From contig MJCC01000012.1 of assembly GCA_001766655.1 (NCBI GenBank), positions 556,827 to 620,826 of the forward strand: DNA of 64,000 nucleotides, in the 5' to 3' direction. The position numbers and the translations under genes are program-made. Shown in pieces: positions 53,861-64,000 of the stretch; position 1 is the stretch's first letter; each line of letters starts with the position of its first letter. The notes under the pieces were generated by a model, which worked only from the letters and a program-made list of their open reading frames with translations, did not search any database and had not been told where the DNA came from. This stretch comes from Phytomonas francai. Lineage: Eukaryota; Euglenozoa; Kinetoplastea; Trypanosomatida; Trypanosomatidae.

Positions 53861-56640
53861 TTTGTTTGGAGGCATAGAGGATCAGCACTCGGAAGGGTTT
53901 ACGAGGGAAGAGACTAAAATAATGACATTTTCGATAGAATTTCTGCAAAAACGATTTTGAAACGACGTTTTTATGCGTCGTTTCCGGCGGTCGCTTCTCG
54001 TTGGACTCTTTTGCATGCTTTTCATCCTTCTTTGCATACATTTTTCCGACAATTCAAATGGGACCCCCATTGCGCCCTCGGTGCTTCCCCGTGGTGGCAC
54101 GCCGGACATGTTTGTTTATTCGACTACGGGGACTCGTGTGGTTGTTTTCGTCATGAGTGACAAAATTTATGACGCTCTTTGCTATTCCGTGGGCTCAGCC
54201 TACTTGAGTGGGCTGCCCGTGGTGGTGGCCGGCTATCATATGCCGTTTCGTGGATTTCTATCCAAGTTCGACTTTTTGGAGCGGGCCATCAAGAATGCCA
54301 ATCTGAATCCCGAGGACGTAGTCATTGTATTAGATTCCGACACGATTTTCACGAGTGAGGATATTAACCCGTTCCTCGATCGTTTCATCGCGCAGTCCGC
54401 CGCGATTCCAGAGGAGCTGGACGCGCTGGCTGTGCGGCAGGGCCGTGCGATGGCACCGTTCATAGTGAGCACTGAAGCTGGTTATTTCGCACCCAATGTG
54501 TTCAACGATTGGCAGGCTTGCTTTGCTGGTTATAACGCTCTCGCGGAAAAGGTACGGAAGTATGCCGCCGCGCATCCCGCGCATAATCTTGCGTTTCCTT
54601 TTGACAAAGCACCACAACACCAGGTAAAGTCAGTCGTTGTGATTGCCCGTACGTGGGCGTACGAGGAGTTCCTGCAGAAGGCCGTGAATTTAGCAAAGAC
54701 ACAAGCTCCACCGTCCAAGACCCAAAATAGGTGGGACTGTGATCAGTCCGTCTATACAGCACTCTTTATAGATGCCCTAACATGGGAGGTTGAGAAGGAC
54801 GTTTTCTCGATGCCATTAAAAGAGCGGCAGACAATGCGGTCCCCCTACGGTGTGCGTGCGGGATTCCTCGATTTAGATCGCGCGAATGCGTTGTCGCTTT
54901 CGACACTGATATTCGTTGTATATCTGTCCGAACTGAACGATGAGCGCTGGGCGAAGTACCTTCCATTCAGTTGGTTCAATCACCTGCACTCCCATGACAT
55001 ATCTGATTTCAAGGGTATGTATCCGTTTGTGCGTGGCCTTTACAGACGAGCGTACGCCGCACACGATAAGAAAATATACACGAGGCTGGCGGTGCCCAGG
55101 TGGGTTGACGGGAAAAGGACTTCCCGTATGACCCACATCAGTCTCACACCGCCACTGTGGACGCCCAGGCTGAGGCCCATCGACACAGTCCACAACACGA
55201 CCCGTCATACGTTTCCAGTAATCTTGCACACACAGGGCTGTCCCGACGGGATGACGAAGGTGATGCACATGGAACATGTCTCTGTAGGTGCAGGGTGGCT
55301 CGCACCGATGGTGCACGACTCCGATGCAGAAAAAGTGGCGGTGGAGTATCTGGCATCTGCGCCGTTGTTTCTATCGACACACAATACCATCCTTCAAGAT
55401 TCTTACAACGCGAAATGTGGCTTCCCATTTGAGAGAATTATAAAAAGGGCAAGGAGTCTTTGAGGCGGCTTGCCTTTCCTACTGCATGGAGACTTGCACA
55501 ACACCCTTTAATATGCCATCTACTTTTACAAAGTTAAGAGAAGCACGTTGAGAAGTTTTGTATCTTACGAAGTAACCTTTTAGACAGATCTTGCGAAGAA
55601 AATATGTAAAGCGAGGTTGGACTTCAGGTCACTTTTCCACTGTTTATACACCAGCACATAATCCCATACCAATGCTAATATGGTAGTTGATTTTCTGTTT
55701 TATTTTATTTTATCCCAGCCTTCTTATCACCCTTTTCACAGGGTAGGTTTCCTTAGATCACTCATCTGCGATTTAAAACGCAACAGCATTTTTTTTCTAT
55801 CTAGTGTAACACAGGGTCCCAGAATGGAGAACTCAAGTGCCTAGTATGGATTATTGTCGCACAATATAGACGGTAGAAGTTGTGTTTCGAATCTAATAAT
55901 GTGTAGCTCCGAGGTGATTGTTTTTAATGCTAGTTCCTTTGCAGATTAAACATTCCTTTGGAAGACTGCTGTAACCTCTGAGGTTGTATCTGTGTGTACA
56001 GGTATGTACCCATGGAGCACACTTTCTTCGGCTTACGAGTTCTTTTCGAATAACATGGAATGCTAGTGTGGTATCATTCGTCAATGAGGTACTTTTAGTC
56101 TCATTTGTACAGCGTATCAATATCCTCCCTCTGCGTATTTTTTTAATGCTTAGGTTTTGTAGTATCCACTGATATGGATGAAAAGACGTTTCAGATAAAA
56201 CAATTCAATCATCAAACATTTTCTTTGACCAAATAAATATCCAAACCTGTGGTTTTAAGTCAATTGACGAATTCACACCCTTTGCGGTAGTCGATCATGC
56301 TTTGTAAAAAGGGAGGGCTAGGGGAAACCAGCAAGGATTCACCGCTACGATACCCATTTCGACTTGTTTAAACTTTAACCCATATATTTTGCCCCTATGT
56401 ATTCCTTCTTTAAATGATCGAGTATGCATCCTTTATTTTTGTCCGACTGAGACTAACACGGACCAACCACTACATTATACATTCCTTTTTTTCTTAATAT
56501 TTCTTTTTTTCCATACCTTAAAGATTGCTATATCTAGGTGGAAGCCGTAAGACAGCATTTCTTTAAAATTCAGAAATACTTTCCGTTAGATGCGATTCGT
56601 GTGTTTCATTGGCATTTGAGTCTCTGTGATGTGCTGAAAC
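53861..56640. repeat. Subtelomeric tandem duplication, left unit
   Basis: Corresponds to 57290-60070 at an offset of about 3.43-3.44 kb. Similarity is visible upstream of the genes (the stretch before CACTCGGAA), through the coding region, in the 3' flank (GAGAAGTTTTGTA...) and in the distal spacer (AATGTGTAGCTCC against AATGTGTAACTCC, and the CCGTTAG stretch near 56584 and 60010). The coding parts are most alike; the flanks have drifted. Confidence 0.75.
53973..55463 (+). CDS. Putative type II membrane glycosyltransferase, copy 1
   Basis: A 496-aa protein. Residues 7-22 (LLVGLFCMLFILLC) are a signal anchor after a basic MRRFRR, so the rest should be lumenal. A GT-A-like core follows: VVVFVMSD, VVVAGYHMPFRG, then VIVLDSDTIF with the DSD metal-binding motif at 121-123. 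FPFDKAPQH and WDCDQSVYTALFID (about 254-267) parallel the donor-site segments of PLOD/GT25-type galactosyl- and glucosyltransferases. Where copy 2 has YLNSGVV, this copy has QVKSVVV, so the NSG motif is lost. An upstream ATG (53922) matching copy 2's start leads into a TGA 12 codons later, so translation must use 53973, which keeps the anchor. Acceptor and donor are unknown. Confidence 0.75.
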   Translation: MRRFRRSLLVGLFCMLFILLCIHFSDNSNGTPIAPSVLPRGGTPDMFVYSTTGTRVVVFVMSDKIYDALCYSVGSAYLSGLPVVVAGYHMPFRGFLSKFDFLERAIKNANLNPEDVVIVLDSDTIFTSEDINPFLDRFIAQSAAIPEELDALAVRQGRAMAPFIVSTEAGYFAPNVFNDWQACFAGYNALAEKVRKYAAAHPAHNLAFPFDKAPQHQVKSVVVIARTWAYEEFLQKAVNLAKTQAPPSKTQNRWDCDQSVYTALFIDALTWEVEKDVFSMPLKERQTMRSPYGVRAGFLDLDRANALSLSTLIFVVYLSELNDERWAKYLPFSWFNHLHSHDISDFKGMYPFVRGLYRRAYAAHDKKIYTRLAVPRWVDGKRTSRMTHISLTPPLWTPRLRPIDTVHNTTRHTFPVILHTQGCPDGMTKVMHMEHVSVGAGWLAPMVHDSDAEKVAVEYLASAPLFLSTHNTILQDSYNAKCGFPFERIIKRARSL

Positions 56641-57289: not shown

Positions 57290-60070
57290 ACATTCCGTTC
57301 GCTTTGTTTAGAGGTATAGGCGTTTGTCACTCGGAAATGTTCACAAAGGATAAAGCTAAAAAAATGACATTAGCCCTAAAGCGCTTCGCAAAAGAGTCAC
57401 TAAGTGACATTTTTATGGGTCGTCTCCGGCGGTCGCTTCTCGTAGGGCTCCTTTGCATGCTTTTCATCCTTCTTTGCCAAACTTTCTCTGACAGGTCGAA
57501 AACAATCCCATTTCCACCCTCGGTGCTTCCCCGTGGTGGCACGCCGGACATGTTCGTTCGCTCCACTACAGGGCCTCGTGTGGTGATTTTCGTTATGAGT
57601 GATAAAATTGGTGACTCCCTTTGCTATTCCGTGGGCTCAGCCTACTTGAGTGGGCTGCCCGTGGTGGTAGCTGGCTATGACATGCCATTTCGTGGATTTC
57701 TATCCAAGTTCGACTTTTTGGAGCGAGCGATCGACCATGCCGAACTGAATCCCGAGGACGTAGTCATTGTATTAGATTCCGACACAGTTTTCACAGGTGT
57801 GGACATTAACCCGTTCCTCGATCGTTTCATCGCGCAGTCCGCCGCGACACCAAAGGAGCTGGACGCGCTGGCTGTGCGGCAGGGCCGTGCGATGGCACCC
57901 TTTCTAGCCGTCGGTGAGGATAATTGCTATTCACCTAACATATTCTTCACCACGAATCATTGCGTTGCTGCATATGGCGCCCTCCTTGAAAAGATGCACA
58001 ATTATGCCGCTAAACATCCTGAACATAAGCTCACCTTCCCCTTTGACAAAGCACCACAACACTACCTAAACTCAGGTGTTGTAATTGCCCGTGTGTGGGC
58101 GTACGAGGAATTCCTACAAAAGGTTACCAATTTAGTAGCAGAAAGATTACCCAAAGCTTCAAAGGTGTGGGACTGTGACCAGTCCATCTACACAGCACTT
58201 TACCTCGATCTCTTAACATGGGAGGTAGAGAAGGACGTTTTCTCAATGCCATTGAATGAGCAACAGGCAGTGCAGTCCCCCTACGGTGTGCGTGCGGGGT
58301 TCTTTGGGTTGGACTTTGCTAATGAGTTTGCATCCCTTTCTACGTTTCCTCGTATGGAAGATCACGATGAGCACTGGGCGAAGTACCTACCACGAGACGG
58401 ACCTCAATACCCGCATTCACTAGAGCTGAATAATATCAGAAGTATAGGCCGGTTTGCGGGAACCCTCTTCGGACGAGCGTACGCCGCACACGGTGAAGGG
58501 ATTTACACACAGCTGGCGGTGCCCAAGTGGGTTGGCGGGAGAAGGACACACGATATGACCCACATCCGGCTCACACCGTCACTTTTGTCTCTGAAGCTGA
58601 GGCCCATTGACACAGTCGATAACATTACGCGGCATACATTCCCAGTGATTATGCACGCAGCAGGTCTTACTTTACAATTCAAAGTTGAAGACATGGATTA
58701 TGCTGGTGTGAGTGCAGGGTGGGCTCCGCAGCTGATAAACAGCAAAAGGTCCAAAAAACATATTATGGAGTACCTGGCTTCTGTGCCGTTGTTTTTATCA
58801 ACCAACAACACCATTCTTCGAGATTCTTACCACGCCAAATGTGGCTTTCCATATCATAGCACTATTCAAAAACTAAAATTGCTTCAGTCATTCCCTTTTT
58901 CGATCATATAGACATCGCATCTCCCTTGAGTACACTATCTGGTCGCTTGCGTTTCTCCCTCCTTGAGAGGGGCGGTGGTATGTCGAGGAGTTTTGTACCT
59001 ACAGAGTACCTTCCTGGATAAAGCTTACGAGGGGAATAGGCACAGTAGGGAAGGGCAGCTAGAAGTCTTCCGCTCTTCGTGTGTATCAATACGGGATGTG
59101 ATACAAGCGTTAACATATTTCTTTTTTCCCTTTTTAAATTACACCCGTCTTATCACTCTCTAAATAATACAGGTTTCTCTGGAGAAACCCATCTATGTTT
59201 TTAAATTTAGATGCAGGCTATTCTTTTTCATATTGTGTGACACAGTTACCAATAATAGGGCATGCATATGTTTTGTGAGTAATGGATTAAGAATTGTAAA
59301 AATAAAGTTGGTAGAAGTTGTTGTTTAAATCTATTAATGTGTAACTCCAAGGTTGTTGTTTTAAACGATATTTTTTTTTTAAAAATAAATATTTCTTTGG
59401 AAGGCTACAGTGACTTTTAAGGTTGTGCTATGTATTTAATGTAAATAGATCAAAATTTTATTCAGCCTTCAAGTTCGTTACGAATAACATGAAATGCGAG
59501 TGTGATGCCTAGCATTAGCTAATAAAGGACGTTTGTTCCCATACGTAGTGTAGCAGTACGCTCCCCCCGATTTTTTTTACTCAGCTTTTGTAGTCTCTAC
59601 TACGCTGATTTTGGATGATATGGACATTTCAGATGAAACAAATTAATGATCCATATTGTCCTTGACAAACAAGTATTCAAAAGCGTGGTTTTAACGAATT
59701 GATGAACTCGTATACTTTTTCCTGGTTGAAAATAGTTAGCAAAAAATGAGGGCAAAGGAAACGAGTAAGACTTTACAGATCTTATACCCATTTAGAATTT
59801 CCTTTAATCCATATATTATACCCCCATATTTTCCTTCTTTAAACGATCGAACATGCATTCTTTATTTTGTCTGTCTGGCACCAACATGGACCAACCACTG
59901 CATTATGCAGCCCTTTTTCGTTTTCCTAATATACAACCCTTTCCCCTTCTTTTTATCGGTGATAGGTGTATAGACAAGGTATCTTTTTTTAGCGATACAA
60001 AGGTATTCTCCGTTAGGCAAGGTGTGCATGTGCTTTGCTGGAATTCGAGACTCTGCAATGTGCCCTAGTC
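57290..60070. repeat. Subtelomeric tandem duplication, right unit
   Basis: Partner of 53861-56640 (see there). Confidence 0.75.
57337..58911 (+). CDS. Putative type II membrane glycosyltransferase, copy 2
   Basis: A 524-aa protein from the ATG at 57337; others lie at 57364 and 57415, and the earlier open frame starts at TTG. The short cytosolic tail is followed by RRSLLVGLLCMLFILLC, a signal anchor at about residues 31-46. The core is the same as copy 1: VIFVMSDKIGDSL, VVVAGYDMPFRG, VIVLDSDTVF (DSD), FPFDKAPQHYLNSGVVIARVWAYEE and WDCDQSIYTALYLDLLTW. The PHYLNSG and DCDQ elements resemble the PLOD/GT25 donor-binding region, intact here, so this is the better candidate for an active enzyme. 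Likely location is ER/Golgi lumen. N-glycosylation sites are possible (NIT, NNT). The sugar and acceptor are unknown. Confidence 0.8.
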   Translation: MFTKDKAKKMTLALKRFAKESLSDIFMGRLRRSLLVGLLCMLFILLCQTFSDRSKTIPFPPSVLPRGGTPDMFVRSTTGPRVVIFVMSDKIGDSLCYSVGSAYLSGLPVVVAGYDMPFRGFLSKFDFLERAIDHAELNPEDVVIVLDSDTVFTGVDINPFLDRFIAQSAATPKELDALAVRQGRAMAPFLAVGEDNCYSPNIFFTTNHCVAAYGALLEKMHNYAAKHPEHKLTFPFDKAPQHYLNSGVVIARVWAYEEFLQKVTNLVAERLPKASKVWDCDQSIYTALYLDLLTWEVEKDVFSMPLNEQQAVQSPYGVRAGFFGLDFANEFASLSTFPRMEDHDEHWAKYLPRDGPQYPHSLELNNIRSIGRFAGTLFGRAYAAHGEGIYTQLAVPKWVGGRRTHDMTHIRLTPSLLSLKLRPIDTVDNITRHTFPVIMHAAGLTLQFKVEDMDYAGVSAGWAPQLINSKRSKKHIMEYLASVPLFLSTNNTILRDSYHAKCGFPYHSTIQKLKLLQSFPFSII

Positions 60071-60299
60071 GGTGTACCACGGAGTAACACTGGTCTCGCA
60101 CCGGGCCACATGCTTGCGCCCACCGTGTTCGAGTCCCTTGTACCGTACTGCGATCCCGTTGGTTGGGATTCCCTGCTCTTTTTCCAAGTGGAGAGGCATG
60201 CAGAGGGCATGCGCACCGTGACGCCGCCCGTGAGCAGCTTGCAGCGAGGGAAATCTTCCTTTTTTAATAGATTCCCTACATCCACTTCTTTTTCCTTAA
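58912..60299. other. 3' flank of copy 2 and coding-like segment before the telomeric reading frame
   Basis: 58912 to about 60065 is the 3' flank matching the left unit. 60071-60255 is GC-richer and reads in one plus frame as protein (PGHMLAPTVFESLVPYCDP, GWDSLLFFQVERHAEGM) with no ATG start; I do not recognise it. TTCCTTTTTTAATAG (about 60257-60271) and a pyrimidine tract before 60300 are candidate splice signals. Confidence 0.45.
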
Positions 60300-61172
60300 A
60301 TGGAGCCCAATCTAAGCCCAGAGCTTCTGGAAAAATTCTCCAAATTGGAAAGCTACGTTAAAAATGGGCATATTAATAAGGAGTTGGCCGATAAATTTAA
60401 GATGGACCTTCTGGACAAGTTTCTTTTGTCCAAAACATGGAGCGAGTCTTCTCGAGAGGGTGTTAAACTGACGGAGCAGGAGCTTGATACTCTGGGGGAC
60501 CGCATTGAACCGTGGAAAAGTGAGTCCCGACGGTTACGAACATCAAGGAAACAGGTTCTTGAATCTTTGTGCCCACCGAACAGAGAAAAAACCATGAGGA
60601 CACTGAGGGGTTGCTATAATGCGAAAGCACACTATGGCTGCATGACCCCCATCGAGTCTTTGGTTTTGCAGTACCTCTTGTTTGGTACGGAGGATATCAC
60701 TGTCAGGGTGGGGTATCTTGCTCACCTTCTCCTTATGGACTACAAACGGGAGCGGACCCTTTTGCATAACTGGGCCGTCCACGATGAGTTCCCCCCCCTG
60801 GAGCAGGACAACAAGGGCGATTATATTGCCAACCTTATGATCCCACTCTTCCCGGCCCACATGACAGAGTTAAACAATAAGATATTCAGTCGTTTGACGC
60901 AAGCCTTGGCAGGTGGTGGGACCGATGTGTCAACGGAGGATTTCTTAAAGCTTGAGCAGGACATGCGGACTGTCAGCGTGGAGGCCATCAGCGACAAGAA
61001 CAGGCTTGCTGTCACCGACAACAAACTGCAGCTGGCAGCCTCCGAGTTTGAGGCGTTCAAGGCAGAGATGGAGAAATTCCGGAGTGAGATGGCTCAACAA
61101 CTGAATCAGATGCAGCAGTACTTGATGCAAACACAGCGGCCTCAGGCCCTTATACCGCAGCCTCGTATTTAA
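60300..61172 (+). CDS. Unknown subtelomeric protein, N-terminal part up to an in-frame TAA
   Basis: A 290-aa frame starting at an ATG at 60300 with a pyrimidine tract just upstream. It is helical and charged (PELLEKFSKLESYVKNGHIN, ADKFKMDLLDKFLLSK). The centre includes MTPIESLVLQYLLFG and VRVGYLAHLLLMDYKRER. Residues about 230-285 form a coiled coil (FEAFKAEMEKFRSEMAQQL) followed by a Gln-rich stretch (NQMQQYLMQTQRPQ). It ends in TAA at 61170-61172, but the same frame then stays open for 398 more codons. I recognise no family. A gag- or nucleoprotein-like architecture is one thought; a telomere-associated retroelement is another. Neither has direct support such as a reverse transcriptase. Confidence 0.6.
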   Translation: MEPNLSPELLEKFSKLESYVKNGHINKELADKFKMDLLDKFLLSKTWSESSREGVKLTEQELDTLGDRIEPWKSESRRLRTSRKQVLESLCPPNREKTMRTLRGCYNAKAHYGCMTPIESLVLQYLLFGTEDITVRVGYLAHLLLMDYKRERTLLHNWAVHDEFPPLEQDNKGDYIANLMIPLFPAHMTELNNKIFSRLTQALAGGGTDVSTEDFLKLEQDMRTVSVEAISDKNRLAVTDNKLQLAASEFEAFKAEMEKFRSEMAQQLNQMQQYLMQTQRPQALIPQPRI

Positions 61173-62369
61173 CCAACAGCCAAAGGAACAAGCGATACAC
61201 AGGCGGTCACAGGTTCCCTTCTCCTCAGTGAGAAGCTGGCATGCCGTAACCTAAGTGGGGATGATGAACAGGAAACCAGCTCTCCCTCCACAGAAGCATC
61301 TGTTCAGGAGAAGATACCCGCACCTCCATCTTATTTGGAGGACTTGCTTGAGTATGGAGTCGAACAAGTACGTACGTCAGCGTTTTCAGATGTGATCGAG
61401 GGTGACATTCAAAAGATGCCATTTGATGCTTCAGGAAAATTGAGGAAAGAACAGCTAGTAAGGTATATATGGTTTGCTAAGCAAACGTCGACGAAGCTCA
61501 AGATGGTGGCAGTGTGTGCGTGTCTCTTCCTCCATAAGTATCCATATCTAAGGGAGGAGAGCTGTTGCAGAGATCTGAGGCATGATTTTGACAATGGATT
61601 CAACGAAACGATGGAGCAGCTCGATAAAAACGAATCCATTCAGGATGGAATGCTCCTGGTGTATACTGCAAAGGCCCAATGGTGGCAGACCAATCATCAC
61701 ACTGGGAAATCGAGGACTAAAGCTTCGGTATATATGGAAAAATGCATGAGGGGTTTGGGCCTTGATCCTAAGGCCCCAGACGAAGTGCGTGTTGTACATA
61801 TGGTCACACGTTGGTTTAACACAAAGGTGATTCTCTATTCAGCTGGTGTGCATCCTATAAATGGATTGCCAGACGACATTGATTTGACAGTATTGCTCCC
61901 AATTAATAAGGACATTGTTGTGCGTATGAGGTCAAATCCTGCAGGGACTCCAAAGCAAGCTATTATCATCGTCATTCTGAAAGAGCTTTGCAGTTCTGAA
62001 TATGTGAGATGTGTAGACCCTGAATTCGCAACGAAGATTACACACCTTATTAGGTGGGAGAAAATCGCGAAGAAAAAGTGGGCACGGTATCATCCTAAGG
62101 CAGCATATCTTACAGGGAAGCCAAGGTTGGTGCCTCCTGTGATTAGCTACGACCTTTTAGACATGGCTAAAGCTTACCTTCAGGTGTGCTTAAGCGATAC
62201 CGCATACGCTAAGGCTTTGAGCATGAAGTCGGCAAGTGCTAACTCAGTTGCTTTGGCTGCGATGCAATCGTTGAATGAAAGACTTGCCGAAGGTAAAGCA
62301 AGACCAAAAGATCGGATTGAAGATAATGTGGTGTGGAAGGCAGTCAAGGATGCTTGCAGAGCCGAATAG
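61173..62369 (+). pseudogene. Continuation of the 60300 reading frame after the TAA
   Basis: Open from 61173 to a TAG at 62367-62369, in the same phase as 60300-61172. The first ATG lies well inside, so on its own it lacks a start at the natural place. Early residues are acidic and disordered and include a PPSY motif at about 61323-61334 (IPAPPSYLEDLLEYG). From about 61400 it is globular (LRKEQLVRYIWFAKQ, LKMVAVCACLFLHKY, EVRVVHMVTRWFNTKVIL, FATKITHLIRWEKIAKKKW). The end is helical (NSVALAAMQSLNERLAEG). Identical codon style on both sides of the TAA argues that it was once, or still is, one protein of about 690 residues. Confidence 0.6.
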
Positions 62370-62592
62370 CTACACCTATATGTGTTTACATCTGTAAACT
62401 CAAAGACAAATGCTTTATTTTTTTATTATACGTATTTATTTTTTTACTATGGGCCAAATCTGCAGTGATTTGTTCCCTGCCATGGGATTTAGTTATCCAT
62501 GGATGTTTTTTTTTTCATTATTCGAAATAATAGTGAGGCTGATAATTATTTTTGATAAACAAGTTGATATGCTTATAAATCCCATATTTTGA
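62370..62592. other. AT-rich spacer
   Basis: Very T-rich spacer after the TAG at 62369. No gene; under 300 bases. Confidence 0.5.
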
Positions 62593-62928
62593 TATACTTC
62601 TAGATCCAATTCCGTCAATGCTGCACACGATACTCCCCGTAGACGTTCAGCATTAGACAATAGGTTAGCCAGTAGTGAAAAGGTAAGCCATCTAGAAGAA
62701 ATACGGGAGGTGCTTATTGGACCTCGTATAAAGTTAACTTATCCGATTCTTTTCAAGTTTTCAGTGATTGGTACAGACTTGTACTTATATATGACATCAT
62801 CGCAAGTATTTGTCAGTATTAACCAGACATTGTATGCCACCACAAATCTTTTCCATCTAAACGCATTTACTGATGCAATAGCACTCAGGAAAAAATCCCA
62901 ACAGAAGGATATCTTTTTCTTTTCCTAA
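62593..62928 (+). pseudogene. Second coding-like fragment
   Basis: A plus-strand frame of 111 codons between a TGA and a TAA (62926-62928), with no start codon at its beginning. It reads NAAHDTPRRRSALDN, SHLEEIREVLIGPRIKLTYP, FKFSVIGTDLYLYMTSSQV and LFHLNAFTDAI. Composition and spacing suggest the remains of a second gene of the same insertion as the 60300-62369 frame. No family recognised. Confidence 0.35.
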
Positions 62929-63134
62929 CCCTGGTAAATGATCCAATTTTTAAAATAAAACACATGCACCTACCAGTAGCGCTGGGTCACGAACTAGCAG
63001 GGCCCGACCGCGGCTTTCTCACTACTTTATACCAAACTCTTTCCTCTTTCTCTCTCTCTTCTTCTTTTTCGTTTTCCTTCGCTCACCTGGAGGCCCCCAG
63101 ACGAGGGCCCCAAGTTGTTTAGCGGGCACCTCTT
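62929..63134 (+). promoter_or_regulatory. Pyrimidine-rich tract, possible trans-splice acceptor
   Basis: At about 63035-63083 the plus strand is almost pure pyrimidine (CTTTCCTCTTTCTCTCTCTC and onward), followed by CCCCCAG at about 63100. This looks like a strong acceptor for a gene that is now only a relic (63128-63530). Confidence 0.4.
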
Positions 63135-63530
63135 TACCGGGAAGCACACGGCCACGTGGAGCCACGGACGGTGCAGCAGCAGCTCGCCCGACTGGCGCCC
63201 GACGGGCTCCCGAACGCGTCGCGTCTCACCCTCGTGAGGGACCACTTCCCGATTGTCCCCGCGCAGCGCAAGCCGAACGGGTAGGACGGCATCGGCGGCG
63301 GGTACTCGGTGAGCAAGCTGTATGAGTCCCCATGGGATCTGTGGCACGCGCCGTGCATCGATGTGGTCTTCTTTTACTTGCGCGGGCGGCGGAACTCTGC
63401 GTATGCGCTCTCGCGCCACTTTATGGGCGACCGCTGCGATGCCAGTGTGCAGGTCGCGCGTGCGGACGACATGGGACACCTTGGTCTCCGGAGCGCGTTC
63501 TCGCCGCTGTGCGACCCCCCCTCCTCCTGA
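63128..63530 (+). pseudogene. GC-rich coding relic with an in-frame TAG
   Basis: One plus frame reads about 52 codons (HGHVEPRTVQQQLARLAPDG, RLTLVRDHFPIVPAQRK), then a TAG at 63282-63284, then 81 more codons in phase (GGYSVSKLYESPWDLWHAPC, VVFFYLRGRRNSAYALSRHF) to TGA at 63528-63530. It has no ATG start. Composition is far more GC-rich than the 60-63 kb region. I do not recognise the protein. It appears to be a recently decayed subtelomeric gene fragment. Confidence 0.35.
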
Positions 63531-63843: not shown

Positions 63844-64000
63844 TTAGGGTTAGGGTTTGTGTTCTTGTTTGTGTTTGTGTTAGGGTTCGGGTTCGGGTTC
63901 GGGTTCGGGTTCGGGTTAGGGTTCGGGTTCGGGTTAGGGTTAGGGTTAGGGTTAGGGTTAGGGTTAGGGTTAGGGTTAGGGTTAGGGTTAGGGTTAGGGT
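63844..64000 (+). repeat. Telomere repeat array, TTAGGG with internal variants
   Basis: Twenty-six hexamers in unbroken register plus one base. From inside out: two TTAGGG, TTTGTG, TTCTTG, two TTTGTG, one TTAGGG, five TTCGGG, one TTAGGG, two TTCGGG, then eleven TTAGGG to the edge. The G-rich strand runs toward the right, as expected for a right chromosome end. TTAGGG is the kinetoplastid telomere repeat. Confidence 0.98.

Follow-up and report, generated by a model that had tools for sequence, protein, structure and literature searches.

The 690-codon reading frame next to the telomere-like repeats at the right end of contig C3 of Phytomonas francai (genome of 17.4 Mb in 37 contigs) belongs to a telomere-adjacent gene family that was not found elsewhere, and the copy described here is broken by a single stop codon. 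By the window we mean the whole stretch of 64,000 nucleotides that was analysed, which forms this contig end and terminates in TTAGGG repeats and variants of them. We consider it probable that the frame is one of nine long copies of the family, that the window copy is a pseudogene and that recombination drove the spread of the family. The window contains the following parts.

53973..55463, + strand: subtelomeric gene of the same family as the next gene (open frame, no Pfam match, ~75% DNA identity to that neighbour)
57337..58911, + strand: second gene of that neighbour family (23 relatives, 44-60% identity)
58912..60250, + strand: spacer common to many chromosome ends (16 genome matches)
60251..60299, + strand: short 5' leader, lacking 306-322 bp that six other copies have at this point
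60300..61169, + strand: first part of the frame, 290 codons, with a variable N-terminus, a conserved core and a helical, Gln-rich end
61170..61172, + strand: TAA, in the window copy only; a sense codon in 8/8 other copies
61173..62366, + strand: second part of the frame, 398 codons (9 matches, all without an internal stop)
62370..63000, + strand: AT-rich spacer (GC 0.35), also present at the other chromosome ends
63285..63527, + strand: GC-rich tail (open for 81 codons), homologous to C2:128589-128825 and to the terminal part of the C32 relic
63844..64000, + strand: telomere repeats, TTAGGG and variants

The frame begins with an ATG at 60300, runs for 290 codons to 61169, is interrupted by the TAA at 61170-61172, and continues for another 398 codons (61173-62366) to a TAG at 62367-62369, with no further in-frame stop found within 60300-62369. 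When the 2070 nt were shuffled by base, the longest open stretch was 195 codons, and 0 of 2000 shuffles reached 290. The original prediction of a 690-codon frame split by one in-frame TAA is thus confirmed, both sides being in one phase, as is the distance of about 1.5 kb from the stop of the frame to the telomere-like repeats.

The position of the TAA is occupied by a sense codon in all eight sister copies, and the stop is therefore private to the window copy. Because the other eight copies are open at this site, the window copy looks like a freshly broken (or misread) member of the family, which supports the earlier proposal of a recently inactivated gene; it would be a new pseudogene, with at most the 290-residue first part as a product. 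The same proposal had allowed for a readthrough product, which is not supported because the TAA is not conserved among the copies. Programmed readthrough, or two separate genes, would agree with the single phase on both sides of the stop, but with the stop in 1/9 copies and the other eight open across its site we regard either as extremely improbable. An error of sequencing or assembly, leaving the window copy intact, would likewise account for a sole in-frame stop in 2 kb where 8/8 sister copies are open; however, the window copy is already unusual in lacking the upstream segment of ~310 bases, and we consider an error improbable. This segment of 306-322 bp is present before the gene at C3 left, C5, C7, C9, C12 and C36, six copies that share the N-terminal type of the window copy. 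The single in-frame TAA is the least interesting part of the result; the family itself is real and moderately interesting.

A DNA search of the genome returned 11 places, comprising the window copy, eight other long copies and two pieces of 69 bases. The eight other long copies are 86-95% identical to the window copy, those on C4 and C23 matching only from base 325. Long copies, nine in all, are found on C3 (one at each end), C4, C5, C7, C9, C12, C23 and C36; every one is near a contig end with the 3' side outward, and each is the outermost long frame before that end. Where the stop was seen (eight copies), 0.5 to 1.8 kb of contig remains past it, and telomere-like repeats are reached by only three of the nine contig ends (C3 right, C12 and C23). 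Seven sister copies are uninterrupted from ATG to stop, with 689-692 codons, and the C36 copy, which is cut by an N run of ~1 kb at the contig start, is open over 564/564 readable codons. The possibility that two unrelated host proteins had been fused was rejected, as one continuous frame runs across the copies of the family. The two short pieces (C11:401-469 and C16:244-312) have an identical junction, at which the gene ends after its first 69 bases and telomere-like repeats follow directly; these truncated genes look like healed chromosome ends. Like the window copy, both lack the pre-gene segment of 306-322 bases.

Sequence is exchanged between these chromosome ends. In a PHI-like statistic calculated with our own script, 0/2000 permutations reached the observed value for eight copies, and again 0/2000 for the six copies that remain without C4 and C23. 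The nearest neighbour of a copy shifts along the block, and C4 and C23 differ strongly from the other copies in the N-terminal region, with 54-64% DNA identity over the first 400 alignment columns vs 79-96% over the remainder of the gene (columns 401-2000). Homology between copies continues past the gene on both flanks. Several copies at chromosome ends and exchange between copies, two features of a subtelomeric multigene family, are thus both found here. We propose that recombination between chromosome ends, as gene conversion or as a copying of sequence out to the telomere, spreads and homogenises the family, rather than any enzymes of the family itself.

These results also bear on an alternative, namely that this is a plain subtelomeric host gene family of no mobile ancestry, and that its decayed relics elsewhere in the genome, described below, are old chromosome-end fossils or captures during break repair. 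The copies are embedded in long common subtelomeric blocks together with neighbour genes, evolve in concert and conserve the frame. The shared blocks include the spacer at 58912-60250, for which the 15/16 genome matches checked (all but C30:1531047) fall within ~8 kb of contig ends; the two genes upstream of it, at 53973-55463 and 57337-58911, are putatively ESAG3-like. We hold this alternative to be quite plausible, though short of probable; the points against it come from the relics.

The frame appears to have been kept open for longer than neutral decay would allow. Three pairs were simulated under neutrality, all drawn from copies that are open (seven in number, so that the window copy, which carries a stop, was left out); 7.3, 8.4 and 11.8 stops were expected vs none present, and 1, 0 and 0 of 2000 runs were without any stop. 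Length differences in the protein alignment of eight copies are whole codons, and in the 3' spacer 43/52 gap runs are not multiples of three. The DNA alignment contains eight gaps of a single base, confined to two columns with a spacing of 11 bases, the first column involving C3 right, C3 left, C5, C7, C9 and C12 (also C36, uncounted) and the second C4 and C23; the two columns either compensate each other or reflect the way the sequences were aligned, and the frame is unchanged. Over the 28 pairs of eight copies dN/dS was 0.63; two conserved segments had values of 0.41 and 0.43, columns 235-380 (the linker) reached 1.12, and the window copy vs C7 gave 1.01. Since the copies recombine, the 28 pairs are not independent and these values are rough. 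As they are high for a constrained gene, selection on the family may be weak or partly diversifying. Judged from its sequence, the family evolves fast and is conserved as a protein.

No relatives were kept from searches of 5.8 billion proteins, whether the query was a single copy or a seven-copy profile, with the 7995 candidates sharing the most words scored for each query. The neighbour gene at 57337-58911 served as a control and matched 23 proteins, of which 22 are named Phytomonas (15 Hart1 and 7 EM1); therefore, the database holds Phytomonas proteins, and the family was still not found there. The absence of a recognised family, as originally predicted, holds for both parts of the frame in Pfam, PHROGs, NCBIfam and PDB sequences, which gave no or weak matches. 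Among these, DUF4423 (0.0032) and DUF2390 (0.0051) in Pfam were below their cut-offs, and these two, phrog_23878 (0.0083) in PHROGs and seven PDB chains at 0.33-0.79 were all taken as chance; so was a Fic-domain chain (0.094) that a profile of the sister copies matched in the PDB. A word search of the open-licence literature, which cannot use sequence, turned up no description of the family.

Structure predictions of the protein were poor (mean pLDDT 35.7 and 41.3). A coiled coil had been proposed to end the first part, and this claim is weakly supported: the single-sequence model places a helix at residues 212-277, but pLDDT there is low, with means of 28-66 over 10-residue blocks. A simple hydropathy scan of eight copies found no membrane span, the highest 19-residue values being 0.96-1.41; in the C5 copy, 11 residues close to the N-terminus are moderately hydrophobic (1.46). 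The product is predicted to be soluble, mostly helical and self-associating, with no membrane span, its solubility being taken from the simple hydropathy scan. A YPYL motif at about residues 415-418 occurs in 8/8 long copies scanned, although a motif of this length may be without significance.

The original prediction had further suggested that the frame encodes the structural protein of a telomere-associated element or an integrated virus, which is unproven. The PPSY motif on which this partly relied is present at the expected place, but a PPxY occurs in 1/9 copies only, the window copy's own, and a role as a late domain was rejected for this reason. The product is an orphan protein and the window copy has a PP-x-Y motif, both of which would suit a virus. 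However, the motif is not conserved, no further viral gene was recognised in the unit (frame, spacer and tail), and viral contigs scanned with two short first-half patterns gave 63 pattern matches and 0 confirmed relatives; we judge a viral origin to be very improbable. As for an element, a CCHC box (CX2CX4HX4C) occurs in 0/8 long copies scanned, and the unit contains neither a recombinase nor a reverse transcriptase (RT). What speaks for the element claim is a relic on C32 that joins the first half of the gene to the telomere tail, and a 12-base motif before several copies.

This telomere-like motif, TTCGGGTTAGGG, stands 273-287 bases before the ATG in 5/9 copies, with a near form in C7. It lies within the 306-322-base segment, which is missing in the window copy, and is absent from C4 and C23; the number expected in window shuffles was 0.00, for a motif that was chosen after being seen.

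First-half remnants of the gene were found at C1:9359-10106 and C32:493530-494169 by protein search, in which the 13 genome matches to the first part (60300-61169) comprise nine telomeric copies and four relic pieces, and at C36:701307-701807 by DNA search. In C1 and C32, three of the four pieces are 36-43% identical to the family and the fourth 33%. All three relics extend back to the N-terminus of the family, are decayed and lie outside the telomere units. The C1 relic is 9.4 kb from its contig end, as a chromosome-end fossil of a host family might be. The C32 relic, however, lies ~490 kb from the nearer end, and the surrounding 10 kb has four frames of 388-509 residues, every one on the strand of the relic. 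Also against a plain host family, the relics on C1 and C32 share 93% identity along 880 bases although both are broken, and then diverge abruptly; their GC reaches 0.65-0.72 vs 0.44 in the window, and next to the relic on C32 there are stretches with GC of 0.29-0.46.

In the C32 relic the first half of the gene is joined to the GC-rich tail in the same order and on the same strand as in the telomere units. Tails from C32 and the window matched with a blastp value of 3e-9 in a single comparison, and their DNA is 68% identical over 244 bases (0/2000 shuffles). The tail of the C12 copy vs C32 was not significant by BLASTP (0.093), yet scored above all 2000 shuffles. A genome search with the C32 tail returned itself, C2 (3.8e-7) and the window end (1.7e-4), then more weakly C23, C9, C12 and C7 at 0.002-0.006 and two places at 0.16 and 0.89. 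The C2 match belongs to C2:128467-131700, a decayed, shortened ingi-like retroposon in which the telomere-unit tail takes the place of the 3' end. Since the first half in the C32 relic runs into the telomere-unit tail, the gene and tail have moved as one into a chromosome interior at least once. The same junction hints at an origin from a dispersed, perhaps retroelement-like unit.

The unit might accordingly be a non-autonomous retroelement that associates with telomeres, or a tamed descendant of one, along the lines of TATE and VIPER elements after loss of recombinase and RT; the frame would be a gag-like first ORF and the tail the last part of an RNase H frame since lost. The first-half relics at C1, C32 and C36 agree with this, above all the C32 relic with its telomere-unit tail amid same-strand frames, as does TTCGGGTTAGGG before the ATG. 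So does the C32 tail, whose '...ADALSR...' may resemble the RNase H end of gypsy- and DIRS-type elements. Against this, neither Pfam, NCBIfam nor the PDB supported RNase H in the tail: Pfam gave no match, NCBIfam one weak unrelated model (0.26) and the PDB one weak unrelated chain (1.4); the PF05380 profile also gave no match, but its controls were silent too. The tyrosine recombinase profile PF00589 had 0 matches in the genome (control positive in 14/14), and of seven genome matches to RVT_1 none fell within a telomere unit; at least five of the seven read by eye as ingi-clade. Split direct repeats were sought in the C12 telomere unit and the C32 and C1 relics, where only short weak repeats were found; the lack of mobile-element boundary structure in these three places also favours a host family. 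The insignificant C12 tail comparison weighs against a retroelement as well. The second half of the gene was not found in the C1 relic tail (12 comparisons, none above z 1.8), and in the C36 relic tail one borderline z of 3.8 (3/500) among 12 was taken as chance. A recombinase first suspected in the C1 relic tail had no support from the Pfam scan, and the frame as part of an ingi retroposon was rejected, the 690-codon frame not being beside the ingi copies examined. On balance, we regard the retroelement reading as unlikely, and we are equally doubtful that the unit works like a reduced telomere element. That the protein descends from the first, gag-like frame of some dispersed element is a little easier to entertain, as a minority possibility. 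Somewhat more doubtful is the full combination, in which recombinase and RT were lost, selection preserved the first frame, and the resulting gag-only telomere-associated unit is now carried at chromosome ends by recombination.

The family that we favour, spread by recombination among chromosome ends, can be compared with three known systems. TATE sits in telomeric hexamers of L. braziliensis, with internal copies as remnants only (PMC2696322), and no domain is predicted in its gag-like frame (PMC6681497). Our unit is similarly linked to telomeres, with copies at many ends and remnants inside chromosomes, and its frame has no recognised domain, a parallel that counts for the retroelement reading. 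Compared with insertion into telomeric hexamers, distal repeats are found at C3 right, C12 and C23 and the proximal motif in 5/9 copies, with the near form in C7. Unlike TATE and VIPER, the unit has no recombinase, RT or split direct repeats where these were looked for, and it is not classed as either because they were not found where examined. Leishmania SCG genes likewise occur at many chromosome ends and exchange sequence among their copies (PMC5853035, PMC2696322), but our family is not a recognised glycosyltransferase or surface protein. DIRE of Phytomonas are decayed ingi-clade retroposons (PMC3916237); ingi-like copies occur in this genome too, one of them (on C2) joined to the telomere tail, but the 690-codon frame was not seen in those examined.

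That a compact parasite genome has kept an orphan protein frame open at seven of its chromosome ends makes a test of function worthwhile. If the retroelement ancestry were true, a telomere element could shrink to one structural gene and persist without enzymes. A gag-only unit, if real, would persist in a lineage for which loss of TATE and VIPER is reported from Phytomonas EM1 and HART1 (PMC6681497).

Two minor observations concern the surroundings of the relics. Beside the C32 relic lies a short dispersed repeat of ~90 bases that recurs at seven other places in six contigs. Near the left end of C1, an open frame at C1:8001-8849 contains repeated cysteine-rich units, with a masked stretch not far from it.
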